Origin: Oscillospiraceae bacterium
GTDB lineage: Bacteria; Bacillota; Clostridia; Oscillospirales; Ruminococcaceae
Reading direction: 5' to 3'
Length of the DNA: 64,000 nt
Assembly (NCBI GenBank): GCA_012520915.1
Contig: JAAYNJ010000003.1
Location: 1-64,000, forward strand
Made by a program: the position numbers and the translations under genes. The notes below the pieces were generated by a model. The model searched no databases, was not told the DNA's origin, and was given only the letters and a program-made list of their open reading frames with translations. Below, piece by piece: positions 38,895 to 44,299 of the stretch. Numbering within the stretch: the stretch's first letter is position 1; every line of letters begins with the position of its first letter.

Positions 38895-38944
38895 TTTCAG
38901 TTTTATGAAATTTTTATAAATTCATTTAGTTGGGAGGGGATACA

Positions 38945-40417
38945 TTGACAGCATTGCGCAGTAAGTTTAAGGACGTTATGACAGCGGTTGTGCCCATAAT
39001 TGTAATCGTTTTGCTGCTCCATCTGACCATAGCGCCTCTTGGAGAGGGGCTGGTTCCGAAATTTTTTGTAGGAAGCGTCCTGGTGATTATCGGTCTGACA
39101 GTATTTCTTTTCGGTATTGATCAGAGTATCGATCCAATAGGCCACGGCATAGGCAATATGCTTGCCCAATCCGGCAAAGCTTCTCTCGTTTTAGTGACGG
39201 GTGTAGTTTTGGGTTTCTTTATATCATTTGCGGAACCCGATCTTCATATTTTGGCAAGACAGGTTTCGGATATAACCGAAGGTCAATTCGGGCATATGGT
39301 TATGGTCATTGTGGTATCCATAGGAATCGGTGTGATGATGACTTTGGCTATGTTCAGAATCCTAAAGAACTTTCCCTTAAAGTACACTTTTTTACTTGCT
39401 TACGGACTAATCTTTATCTTGTCGATGTTTTCCTCATCCGACTTTCTGGCGATAGCTTTCGACTCGTCGGGAGCGACAACAGGTGCGCTGACCACACCGT
39501 TCATGCTTGCATTGGCAGCCGGTGTTTCGGCGATGAAAAAGAATTCCAAAACCAGCGAAGCGGACAGCTTCGGACTTGTCGGCATTTCTTCTTCGGGTGC
39601 GATAATAGGAGTGCTCAGCGCGTCGATAATAATGGGGCTCGGAAAACTCACGGGAACGCCCCCGGCATCCGAGTTGGCGGAACAGGATTTGCTCGGGGTC
39701 TACGGCCATCTGTTTCCGACAATAGCACTTGAAACAATTATTTCACTTGCGCCGATTGTGGTTTCATATATCATTATTCAGATATTTTTCTTGAAACAGT
39801 CAAAAGGGGCCGTTTCCTCCATATTCAAAGGCTTGATAATGACATATGTCGGCCTCCTGCTGTTTCTCACAGGGGTAAACGGCGGATTTATGGAAGTCGG
39901 ACGGGAGGTCGGAAAGATTCTCGCCTCCATGGACAGCAAGCTGCCTGTGTTGGCGGTTTCCTTCATTCTCGGATTGGTGACCGTGTTGGCGGAGCCTGCG
40001 GTAATAGTTCTGACGCACCAGGTGGAGGATATTACCGGAGGATATGTTAAGCGTCCCCTTGTACTAGTCTTTTTATTCGTTGCCGTAGGGCTTGCAATTT
40101 TTATGGCAACACTGCGCACACTGGTACCTGCGATACAGCTGTGGATGTATCTGCTGTTCGGATTCGGCTTTTCCGTATTGCTTGCCTTTTTCACTCCCGA
40201 CCTGTTTGTCGGAATAGCATTTGATGCGGGAGGAGTGGCGTCGGGCCCGATGACGGCTACCTTCAGTCTTGCGTTCATCCAGGGAATAGCTATCAGCACG
40301 CCGACTGCGGATATCGTGACCGACGGTTTCGGAATGATTGCGATAGTTGCGATGATGCCGATAATCGCTTTGCAGACTTTGGGTCTGATTTATCGTTTAA
40401 AAACGAGAAAGGGTTAG
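38945..40417 (+). CDS. DUF1538 integral membrane protein (two-fold repeat), PII-associated
   Basis: The 490-residue protein has about 12 transmembrane segments and an internal two-fold repeat: FFISFAEPDLHILARQVSDIT in the first half corresponds to LVTVLAEPAVIVLTHQVEDIT in the second, and FLAIAFDSSGATTGALTTPFMLALA to FVGIAFDAGGVASGPMTATFSLAF. It is a DUF1538 member, probably a transporter or channel. The start is the TTG at 38945 with GGGAGGGG five bases upstream. A tandem-PII protein follows immediately, and PII proteins often gate the transporter encoded next to them. The substrate is unknown. Confidence 0.85.
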   Translation: MTALRSKFKDVMTAVVPIIVIVLLLHLTIAPLGEGLVPKFFVGSVLVIIGLTVFLFGIDQSIDPIGHGIGNMLAQSGKASLVLVTGVVLGFFISFAEPDLHILARQVSDITEGQFGHMVMVIVVSIGIGVMMTLAMFRILKNFPLKYTFLLAYGLIFILSMFSSSDFLAIAFDSSGATTGALTTPFMLALAAGVSAMKKNSKTSEADSFGLVGISSSGAIIGVLSASIIMGLGKLTGTPPASELAEQDLLGVYGHLFPTIALETIISLAPIVVSYIIIQIFFLKQSKGAVSSIFKGLIMTYVGLLLFLTGVNGGFMEVGREVGKILASMDSKLPVLAVSFILGLVTVLAEPAVIVLTHQVEDITGGYVKRPLVLVFLFVAVGLAIFMATLRTLVPAIQLWMYLLFGFGFSVLLAFFTPDLFVGIAFDAGGVASGPMTATFSLAFIQGIAISTPTADIVTDGFGMIAIVAMMPIIALQTLGLIYRLKTRKG

Positions 40418-40431
40418 AGGTGGTTATGAGT

Positions 40432-41100
40432 ATGAGTTGTGATATTCAGGTGTTGACTGTTGTGCTTACTCCGGAACAGTGTCAAACTCTTTCCAAGTTG
40501 GCGCGCAAAGAACATATAGCCAGAACAATAATTATGGCAAAGGGAACCATATCAAACCAATTTTTGATGATGCTGGGAATAACCAGCGACAGGCGCGAGG
40601 TGGTCAGCATTATACTTCCAAAAACAGAAGCGCGGGAGTTTGTCGAACTGATCAATGAAAAGATGCAGCTGGACAAACCCGGAAAGGGAATAGCCTACCT
40701 GACGGATGTGCTCGCCTGTGTAGGAACGGAATATGCGGAAGAGAAGAGTTTTAACGAATCAGTAAATTTGGAGCCGGAGGAAAATATGTATAAAAAAATA
40801 ACCGTCGTTGTGGATCGTGGGAAATCCGGAGAAGTTATGGATGCGGCGAGAGAGGCAGGGGCCAGAGGCGGAACAATATTCCACGGCAGAGGCTCGGCCG
40901 GAAAAGATGCAAAGAAAGTTTTCGGAATAGAAATTGAACCAGAAAAAGAGATTATTGTTATATTGACTCCCAATGATGTCACTCAAAATGTTTTTGATTC
41001 GATATCTGAAAAAATGAATCTGAAGGAACCGGGCAACGGAATAATGTATGTGGAACCGATTTCCGGAACTTTCGGACTTTTTGAAAATTCGAAGAAATAA
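40432..41100 (+). CDS. Protein with two tandem PII-like domains
   Basis: The 222-residue protein holds two PII-fold domains. The first (about 5-100) contains GTISNQFLMMLGITSDRREVV; the second (about 115-215) contains GARGGTIFHGRGSAGKD followed by KEIIVILTPNDVTQNVFDSI. PII proteins sense nucleotides and regulate transporters or enzymes. Domain 1 lacks the classical T-loop tyrosine. I chose the ATG at 40432, where AGAGGTGG lies eight bases upstream. It is paired with the DUF1538 membrane gene (14 bases apart), which I infer it regulates. Confidence 0.83.
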   Translation: MSCDIQVLTVVLTPEQCQTLSKLARKEHIARTIIMAKGTISNQFLMMLGITSDRREVVSIILPKTEAREFVELINEKMQLDKPGKGIAYLTDVLACVGTEYAEEKSFNESVNLEPEENMYKKITVVVDRGKSGEVMDAAREAGARGGTIFHGRGSAGKDAKKVFGIEIEPEKEIIVILTPNDVTQNVFDSISEKMNLKEPGNGIMYVEPISGTFGLFENSKK

Positions 41101-41120: not shown

Positions 41121-41152
41121 AAAAGACCGGCATTGACAAATGCCGGTCTTTT
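41121..41152 (+). terminator. Intrinsic terminator after the DUF1538-PII operon
   Basis: A perfect 14-bp stem (AAAAGACCGGCATT and complement) with loop GACA ends in a T run. It lies 20 bases beyond the PII stop and could also serve the convergent lipoprotein gene. Confidence 0.9.
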
Positions 41153-41190: not shown

Positions 41191-42399
41191 TCAGTACAGG
41201 AACTCACTGATGCTCAGTTCATCGAAAAGGGAATTGCCCTTTATGGGATTATCCCTGATATCGAGGAATTCAAGACCTTTAATCGATTTCAAAACCTCTG
41301 CGTCTTTTACTCTGTTTCCGGCAAACGAAAGCCGTTTGAGATTGGGAAGTTTTTTCAATGGAGATATGTCGCTGATTTCGGAATAGTCCAACTTCAATTC
41401 TTTGAGACTGATGAGCGACTCTATTCCGGACAAATCGCGGATACCGGTTTCAGACATTGAAACTCTTTTTAATGACTTTAAGGAGAGGAGCGGGGAAATA
41501 TTTGTCAAAGGCATGAAATTAATTTCCAATTCCTCAAGAAGCAGAAAGTTTGAAAGATCCGACAGCGAATAGATGCTTCCCCTCACTTCAGGCTGTTCAA
41601 CACCGTCAATTATTATCTTTCTGTTATTTATGTTTTTCCTGTCACGCTTTGAGACCCCGTTTATTTCTATCTTTTTTATGTCCGATATGTCTCTGACGGT
41701 AACTATCCCTTCAGGTCTGTCGAGATAGTTCCGCACTATTCTTTCGAAAACCGGATCATTAAAACTCAGCGAGATATATTTCGAAATATCCTTATACTTT
41801 TCTTTTACCGAAGAATCCCCTGTGATTCTGTATCCGTCGGCGAGAATTGTTATGGCGGTACTGTATCGGAAGTCCTCAAAAAATATTTCCGAAGTTTTAA
41901 TGTATCCGTCGGGACAATCGGGCAGGTCGGCGATTAATTTGAGACAAAGGTTTAATGCCGCTTCCCTGTCGTTGGATTTTAAATAAAGTTCCGATGCGTT
42001 TATATATCCGTAGGGAGAATCGGGAAACAATTCGACCATCTCCAAAAAGAGTTTAAGCGCTTCATCGCTCCTTCCTTCATCGATGAGAAAATCCCCGAGA
42101 AGCATATATCCTTCAAGATAGTCCGGAAAATAACGGTTTAGCAATTTAATCTGAATCTCCGCCTTTTCGCTGTTATTTGAATTCAGATAACAGTCGACGG
42201 ACTTGAGATAAGCATCGATATTGTCGGGATGATATTCTATTACCTCAAGATATTTTTCAGCCGCTTTCTCGTAGTTTTCGGCGGTTTCGAGTTTTAAAGC
42301 CTCCTGCATAAGCCGGTCGGCGGAATTCTGACAACCTGAAAGGACTGAAAATAAAAAACAAAAAATCAATATATTTACGGTTAAAAACCTTTTTTTCAA
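41191..42399 (-). CDS. Lipoprotein with TPR and leucine-rich repeats
   Basis: The 402-residue protein has a lipoprotein signal peptide with lipobox LSGC (Cys23). The first part (about 30-200) has at least five TPR-like units, with ENYEKAAEKYLEVIEYHPDN being the clearest. The last 160 residues are leucine-rich repeats, such as LISLKELKLDYSEISDISPL and LPNLKRLSFAGNRVKDAEVL. It is exported and tethered to the outer face of the membrane. Both repeat types bind proteins, so a scaffold or surface-binding role is likely. It has its own upstream region and no obvious operon partner. Confidence 0.82.
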   Translation of the reverse strand: MKKRFLTVNILIFCFLFSVLSGCQNSADRLMQEALKLETAENYEKAAEKYLEVIEYHPDNIDAYLKSVDCYLNSNNSEKAEIQIKLLNRYFPDYLEGYMLLGDFLIDEGRSDEALKLFLEMVELFPDSPYGYINASELYLKSNDREAALNLCLKLIADLPDCPDGYIKTSEIFFEDFRYSTAITILADGYRITGDSSVKEKYKDISKYISLSFNDPVFERIVRNYLDRPEGIVTVRDISDIKKIEINGVSKRDRKNINNRKIIIDGVEQPEVRGSIYSLSDLSNFLLLEELEINFMPLTNISPLLSLKSLKRVSMSETGIRDLSGIESLISLKELKLDYSEISDISPLKKLPNLKRLSFAGNRVKDAEVLKSIKGLEFLDIRDNPIKGNSLFDELSISEFLY

Positions 42400-43513: not shown

Positions 43514-44299
43514 TTGCGAAAAGAAATATTTATATGTTTTGCCGATGCGGACAAGGAAACGGCGTTTGCTGTTGCAAGGGAGCTGGAAAAAAACGGATTC
43601 GGCAGTTATCTGCCTTTGGATATTGACCCATCGGACAAAAACGGGTTAAAAAACCGTATAGGTGAAAGCAGTGTGGCGGTGTTTATCTTTACCGATGAGG
43701 CGAATATGAGCGCAACCGCAGCAAAACAGCTTGAAATTGCTTTTAACTCCGGATTGGCGGTCGTCACTTTCAGATTGAGCAACAGTCTTCCGATAGGAAG
43801 GTTGGGGATATATATAAATGTCCCCCATGTTGTGGACGCAAGGGACGGGGATTTACAGGATAATATCAATAAACTTGTTGATGTAGTGCGTGAAGTGCGG
43901 GAACTCGTTAATGAGAATCGGGAAAGAGAGAAAAAGCGAATCGATTCGAGAAGAATCTTTTCGGGCAGATTTGCCGATAAAATAAACCTTCTGCCGGGTT
44001 ATTCGGGAAAGGGGATTGTCGCTCTGTTCGCAACGGCGTATTATGTGCTGACCTCGCTTTTTCTTTTGATGGCCTACCACGACCTCTTCAGAAGCGAAAA
44101 CCTTTTAGAGGATGCGGCGGTTGCGATATATCTGACGCTTGCCTTCTACCTCCCGGTTGCGATACTGGGGAATGCGTTCAAAGTAAGGGATAAAATTGCC
44201 TTCTTAAGGAAGAGAAATCCCGTCCCCACTGTAGTTTTTATTGCAATCATTGAGGCGGTGCTGTTCTTCTTCTTCAACTTCCTGCTTAAAATTTTATAA
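43514..44299 (+). CDS. TIR-domain protein with C-terminal transmembrane segments
   Basis: The 261-residue protein begins with a TIR-like fold (residues 1-130): IFICFADADKETAFAVARELEKNGF is the first strand and helix, followed by VAVFIFTDEANMSATAAKQLEIAF, in which Glu occupies the place of the NADase glutamate of TIR domains. A basic linker (130-160) leads to four hydrophobic segments. Such proteins are often signalling or defence components, but the partner of this gene is not obvious. The start is the TTG at 43514 with GAGG ten bases upstream. It is followed by a clear terminator. Confidence 0.75.
   Translation: MRKEIFICFADADKETAFAVARELEKNGFGSYLPLDIDPSDKNGLKNRIGESSVAVFIFTDEANMSATAAKQLEIAFNSGLAVVTFRLSNSLPIGRLGIYINVPHVVDARDGDLQDNINKLVDVVREVRELVNENREREKKRIDSRRIFSGRFADKINLLPGYSGKGIVALFATAYYVLTSLFLLMAYHDLFRSENLLEDAAVAIYLTLAFYLPVAILGNAFKVRDKIAFLRKRNPVPTVVFIAIIEAVLFFFFNFLLKIL

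Follow-up and report, generated by a model that had tools for sequence, protein, structure and literature searches.

Why should a bacterial membrane protein of the DUF1538 family be encoded beside a protein that carries two PII-like domains in a single chain, and what would such a protein regulate? The question arises from an Oscillospiraceae bacterium (GenBank assembly GCA_012520915.1, contig JAAYNJ010000003.1), of which a stretch of 64,000 nucleotides, positions 1 to 64,000 of the forward strand, was analysed and is referred to here as the window. We propose that the two genes probably encode a secondary cation/H+ antiporter of the DUF1538/UmpAB family together with its own dedicated PII-like regulator, by which transport would be gated. 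PII-controlled transport and DUF1538 antiport are each already known, and it is the link between them that appears to be new.

Organization of the locus

The two genes occupy exactly the interval originally given for them, 38945-41100 (Table 1). The DUF1538 reading frame starts with TTG and is preceded by a strong Shine-Dalgarno sequence, and only eight bases separate its stop from the PII reading frame, which begins with the ATG at 40426 or with the ATG at 40432, the latter having the better spacing to AGAGGTGG at 40416-40423. On the same strand, gyrB and gyrA lie upstream of the DUF1538 gene, while the genes next downstream of the PII gene lie on the opposite strand, and an intrinsic terminator indicates that the transcription unit ends after the PII gene. 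The neighbours of the pair are gyrA and a TPR/LRR protein, and no czcABC-type RND pump adjoins it. The TPR/LRR protein is a putative lipoprotein with TPR repeats and leucine-rich repeats (41191-42399, minus strand). Further along the window, a TIR-domain protein (PF13676, 33 bits; 43514-44299, plus strand) with apparent C-terminal transmembrane segments is encoded on the strand opposite to its neighbours.

Table 1. Features of the DUF1538-PII locus, in coordinates of the window
Feature	Position	Strand	Evidence
Likely Shine-Dalgarno sequence of the DUF1538 gene, GGGAGGGG	38932..38939	+	Read from sequence
DUF1538 x2 membrane protein, putative UmpA/UmpB-like fused antiporter, 490 aa	38945..40417	+	PF07556, AF2, NCBIfam
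DUF1538 half 1	38996..39628	+	PF07556, 211 bits; conserved E97, R138, D173, D207
DUF1538 half 2	39755..40390	+	PF07556, 200 bits; conserved E350, R391, D427
Tandem PII-like protein, 224 aa, soluble	40426..41100	+	ORF, Pfam, AF2, fold matches
PII domain 1, residues 5-106, diverged first-position paralogue	40438..40743	+	AF2/VIA matches; 50-bit profile score
PII domain 2, residues 122-213, conserved second-position paralogue	40789..41064	+	PF00543; GlnB/GlnK fold matches
Intrinsic terminator, 14-bp stem, T-rich tail	41121..41152	+	Sequence

A DUF1538 membrane protein with an internal repeat

Pfam family PF07556 (DUF1538) matches the 490-residue protein in two stretches (E 4.4e-120, 399 bits, above the cut-off of 22.6 bits), and an alignment of the two halves covers 230 columns with 25% identity (hhalign E 1.5e-47). 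The halves are homologous along their whole length, which bears out the two-fold internal repeat noticed at the outset. Within each half, hhalign found no sequence signal of an inverted repeat (probability <2%). The conserved residues of both halves, scored over 66 sequences, are given in Table 1. AlphaFold2, with 66 relatives as input, produced a confident model (pLDDT 90, pTM 0.89) for which no known transporter fold was convincingly matched (best Foldseek E 0.02; best VIA Z 5.9 over 97 residues), which is an absence of match and not proof of a new fold, and a sequence search of the PDB with the protein gave no convincing relative.

The original prediction had left the substrate as unknown, a statement that has to be corrected, since one member of the family has published antiport activity. 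UmpAB from Halomonas, the sole characterised DUF1538 pair in the open-access literature, is a hetero-dimer of two DUF1538 proteins that functions as a Na+(Li+,K+)/H+ antiporter and requires both subunits (PMC5484666). By analogy with this family member, the window protein may likewise carry out cation/H+ antiport. In E. coli, UmpAB was functional although no PII had been cloned with it (PMC5484666), which indicates that PII is not required for transport itself. In addition, a machine-learning study has placed DUF1538 among growth-pH genes (PMC13255231).

Transfer of the substrate to the window protein is uncertain, because its scores of 150 and 121 bits as a whole protein, and of 87/68 and 78/67 bits for the separate halves, fall far under the NCBIfam cut-offs of the UmpA and UmpB equivalogs (NF041627 and NF041628; 490 and 500 bits, respectively). 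These low scores are among the reasons to consider a regulatory pair in which the window's DUF1538 clade carries a substrate other than Na+ or K+, on which PII would report; the confident model without a convincing match to any solved transporter and the record titles of many fused-type loci, which point to gut or rumen rather than saline samples, fit such a reading as well. We regard it as rather unlikely, given that the protein belongs to the same Pfam family, that acidic residues are conserved in both halves, and that the host names of many split-type named loci suggest salt or alkaline habitats.

DUF1538 was found in none of nine sampled genomes of the window's order or class, and the nearest sequences (L093 and L089) belong to other parts of the phylum, so that horizontal gain of the gene is possible.

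Two PII-like domains in one chain

The claim that the neighbouring gene encodes two PII-like domains in one chain is confirmed by the AlphaFold2 model (pLDDT 87, pTM 0.83), which contains two beta-alpha-beta-beta-alpha-beta domains, both matching the PII fold in the PDB with Z of about 10. Residues 5-105 of the model match PII from M. tuberculosis (3bzq, Z 10.4), PstA (4wk3, Z 10.1), and DarA (Z 9.8), and for residues 122-221 the matches are GlnB/GlnK (Z about 10). With a cut-off of 25 bits, the Pfam P-II family (PF00543) reports domain 2 only, at 37.5 bits, and domain 1 goes undetected by the GlnB profile. Domain 1 nevertheless reaches 50 bits with a profile of the family's other PII domains, built without domain 1, where shuffles reach 6, and 93 bits against first-domain relatives, as compared with at most 8 bits in 200 shuffles, and it aligns with domain 2 at an hhalign E of 3e-34. 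Matches of the protein to phosphoheptose isomerases (phmmer, E about 1e-3) span both domains, find no support in the fold search, and were dismissed as chance.

Such proteins are labelled “P-II family nitrogen regulator” in RefSeq. Neither the uridylylation motif Y-[KR]-G-[AS]-[AE]-Y nor the canonical GlnB/GlnK C-terminal signature with the GDGK B-loop occurs in any of the 243 family domains, both PROSITE GlnB signatures are missing, and the family profile reads G-k-G-i where the canonical GDGK B-loop would be. Searches that detected the PII and AmtB families in nearly all control genomes found no other PII and no AmtB or other ammonium transporter (PF00909) in the window's genome, which argues against ordinary nitrogen control. 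With the motifs absent throughout the family and no AmtB in the genome, a GlnB-type nitrogen regulator was rejected, and on balance we consider the protein a regulator of an ion antiporter rather than the nitrogen regulator of the databases.

The nucleotide site is only partly retained. In a profile alignment to PII from T. thermophilus, the glycines and threonine of the site are kept (G27-x-T29 and G87-x-G89), as is K58, while D88, K90, R101, and R103, the phosphate-holding residues of canonical PII, are replaced, so that nucleotide binding is not assured. This loss of phosphate contacts, together with a precedent in PII-NG, makes direct sensing of a metal or monovalent ion the main alternative, by which the PII domains would gate the antiporter in response to an ion and not to a nucleotide. 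PII-NG adjoins the CzcABC proton/cation antiporter and has been proposed as a metal sensor (PMC7726332), direct sensing of this kind has also been proposed for CutA1-like proteins, and the absence of both PROSITE GlnB signatures, a His that is conserved close to the C-terminal loop at many loci with one PII, and one orphan of the DUF1538-linked PII type that adjoins an RND efflux gene all lean the same way. However, the nucleotide site retains its glycine/threonine scaffold, and this His is absent from both window domains, and we judge direct ion sensing to be distinctly unlikely here.

Conservation of the gene pair

Across 299 genomes of the window's phylum, with DUF1538 defined by PF07556 and this PII type by the tandem-PII profile at E of at most 1e-10, the two occur together in 100 genomes, each alone in 1, and neither in 197; the sole PII-only genome contributes a 46-residue fragment, and the sole DUF1538-only genome a divergent DUF1538. 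The corresponding Fisher p-value of 4e-78 overstates independence, the genomes being related. An archaeal phylum has DUF1538 in 31 genomes and PII in 30, the same 30, the extra DUF1538 genome having a sub-cut-off match, and in a third phylum the pair is present in all eight DUF1538 genomes, with one further genome holding PII only. The pairing of DUF1538 and PII therefore exceeds chance, and the co-occurrence survey suggested in the original prediction has established a conserved gene pair in three phyla.

Gene order is equally constant. We surveyed 144 DUF1538 clusters, drawn from 60 loci of the phylum chosen by DUF1538 score, the window, and 80 named GTDB loci that include Bacillaceae, Balneolaceae, methanogens, spirochaetes, and Desulfovibrionales. 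In 138 of them, the PII gene follows directly downstream of DUF1538 in the same orientation, and the DUF1538 stop and the start of the PII domain lie a median of 26 nt apart. As for the remaining six, one is cut by a contig end (L166), one belongs to a genome with the tandem PII on another contig (L063), one is a second copy beside a complete pair (L168), and three come from Bacillaceae genomes with split DUF1538 and no such PII at all (L112, L122, and L132). The same order recurs in RefSeq plasmid records of Alphaproteobacteria and Clostridia; the Pseudomonadota sample consists of plasmid-borne Alphaproteobacteria only. A search of viral contigs found none.

A PII protein that controls nitrogen or carbon elsewhere in the cell and has no tie to the transporter beyond a common transcript would agree with the RefSeq annotation. 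Yet it is hard to reconcile with near-perfect co-occurrence in three phyla, with 243 of 243 domains that lack the uridylylation and C-terminal motifs of canonical PII, or with the absence of AmtB from the window's genome, and we consider it very improbable.

Some PII domains were also seen in other surroundings. Four domains of the DUF1538-linked type (L199, L200, L201, and L202) have no DUF1538 nearby; as read by eye, L199 adjoins an RND-efflux-like ORF and L202 an MscS-like ORF. PIIs of this type without DUF1538, like the three Bacillaceae genomes that keep DUF1538 without such a PII, count against the proposed model. Near-canonical PII genes at L235:3331-3651 (minus strand) and L237:2721-3023 (plus strand) adjoin apparent potassium (Kdp) transport genes, the Kdp identity being judged by eye, in what would be another pairing of PII with an ion transporter.

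Architectures and duplication of the PII domain

It had been suggested that the tandem PII is matched to the two-fold transporter, and part of this idea stands. Fused DUF1538 with adjacent PII always comes with two PII domains, as a tandem protein in 64 loci and as two PII genes in 3, and lone single DUF1538 always comes with one (7 loci, 2 of these cut by contig ends). Split two-chain DUF1538 is accompanied by one PII in 26 loci, by a tandem PII in 25, and by two separate PII genes in 13, and the 26 loci with a single PII indicate that two PII domains are not a requirement for a two-fold transporter. On a tree of the PII-adjacent DUF1538 domain, about two changes are enough to account for the fused state in the loci sampled, with nearly all cases in one clade, so that these counts provide no independent-origin test of the rule that fusion brings two PII domains. 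An explanation by which fusion of the transporter is the reason for the paired PII domains was accordingly set aside, perfect as the counts look.

The same counts bear on the more specific proposal of a pseudo-symmetric complex, with each DUF1538 half capped by one PII domain. The one-to-one correspondence in fused and lone single loci speaks for it, and the pTM of 0.83 would imply that the two PII domains pack in a defined way in the model. Against these stand the origin of the correlation in essentially one clade, the 26 split loci with a single PII gene, two genomes with three PII domains, and the observation that PII-regulated transporters known so far act as trimers (reviewed in PMC10710835), and we therefore hold a one-to-one cap to be unlikely.

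The history of the PII domains appears to be older than that of the chains that carry them. In the PII tree, which is short and weakly supported, first-position copies cluster together and second-position copies likewise, whether fused or not, with a support of 97 for the split-type second-position group, and within the fused clade profile scores give the same division, which also holds for most of the clade's loci whose PII genes are separate. This grouping irrespective of gene fusion suggests that the PII duplication most likely predates chain fusion, and the first copy most likely diverged strongly afterwards, losing much of the family motif. The two copies are thus old paralogues that have been fused or split repeatedly. 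DUF1538-linked PIIs form a group distinct from GlnB/GlnK (support 84), which also takes in four orphans, in a tree built without a reference PII-NG sequence.

Longer chains also exist. ORFs at L187:3327-4448 (minus strand, 374 residues) and L188:2391-3548 (minus strand, 386 residues), which closely follow enlarged DUF1538 proteins of two domains (736 and 710 aa, respectively), each contain three PII-like stretches, the middle one at E of about 1e-15 and the outer ones at 1e-2 to 1e-4, with weak Pfam support. Such a three-PII chain is possibly a covalent PII trimer.

A proposed mechanism for PII-gated antiport

Returning to an antiporter with a dedicated PII regulator, the two fused DUF1538 halves would replace the UmpA and UmpB hetero-dimer, with E97/R138/D173 and E350/R391/D427 as the likely cation/proton path. 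The PII protein, presumably produced with the transporter from one transcription unit, may bind the cytoplasmic face of the antiporter and switch or tune transport upon binding a small ligand. An adenine nucleotide is our first guess for this ligand, as the backbone motifs of the nucleotide site remain. The two PII domains would act as specialised paralogues, domain 2, which keeps the family's conserved loops, being the likely sensor and domain 1 its diverged partner. Precedents for direct action are found in GlnK-AmtB and SbtB-SbtA, in which PII proteins directly inhibit transporters (PMC10710835).

More tentatively, and with some doubt, we consider that the two fused paralogues could sit on the transporter as a non-homotrimeric assembly, either a pseudo-symmetric cap or a stack of rings. 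The transporter itself would then be something other than an ordinary trimer, with a fold for which no relative has been solved. If true, this would break the pattern of trimeric transporters capped by PII homotrimers. Either DUF1538 assembles as trimers of two-domain units or its PII has left the homotrimer plan, which makes the system a useful test case.

The link in the light of the literature

In the open-access literature, we found no report of a link between PII and DUF1538 or of paired PII paralogues serving one transporter, and PII is not mentioned in two papers that treat DUF1538 (PMC5484666 and PMC13255231). The only links between PII and antiporters that we found in the same literature were PII-NG and a remark on the gene neighbourhood of a NuoL-like/COG3002 operon, which contains a PII gene. 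DUF1538 antiporters are found in about one-third of the sampled genomes of the window's phylum, as well as in archaea and several other bacterial phyla, and their antiport has been studied once in that literature, without the PII partner. If PII switches the antiporter, monovalent cation/proton exchange would join the list of PII-controlled transport, the “nitrogen regulator” label would be corrected for a large group of proteins, and systems with one, two, or three PII domains would offer a natural series in which to relate PII stoichiometry to transporter symmetry.

Comparison with known systems

UmpAB of Halomonas zhaodongensis, in which two homologous DUF1538 units with conserved charged residues make up one transporter (PMC5484666), is the closest relative of the membrane protein. 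It differs in being encoded by two genes instead of one fused chain and in scoring class, the window protein lying under the NCBI equivalog cut-offs, and the UmpAB paper names no PII partner (PMC5484666). On the regulator's side, the resemblance to the c-di-AMP PII-like proteins PstA and DarA lies in the modelled fold of domain 1 only. PII-NG with CzcABC (e.g., GSU2134; PMC7726332) offers a diverged PII that shares an operon with a proton/cation antiporter, although the partner there is an RND tripartite pump and not DUF1538. As in GlnK-AmtB, a gene for a protein with the PII fold adjoins a transporter gene, and control is likely to be direct; in contrast to GlnK, the window's PII lacks the uridylylation motif and the canonical B-loop and carries two PII domains per chain, and its partner is unrelated to the ammonium transporter, which the genome lacks. 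SbtB-SbtA of cyanobacteria involves another transporter family, and SbtB is a one-domain trimer that sits on trimeric SbtA with AMP as its ligand, whereas the window's protein has two domains in one chain; like SbtB, the latter is a non-canonical PII-like protein that would regulate one secondary transporter.
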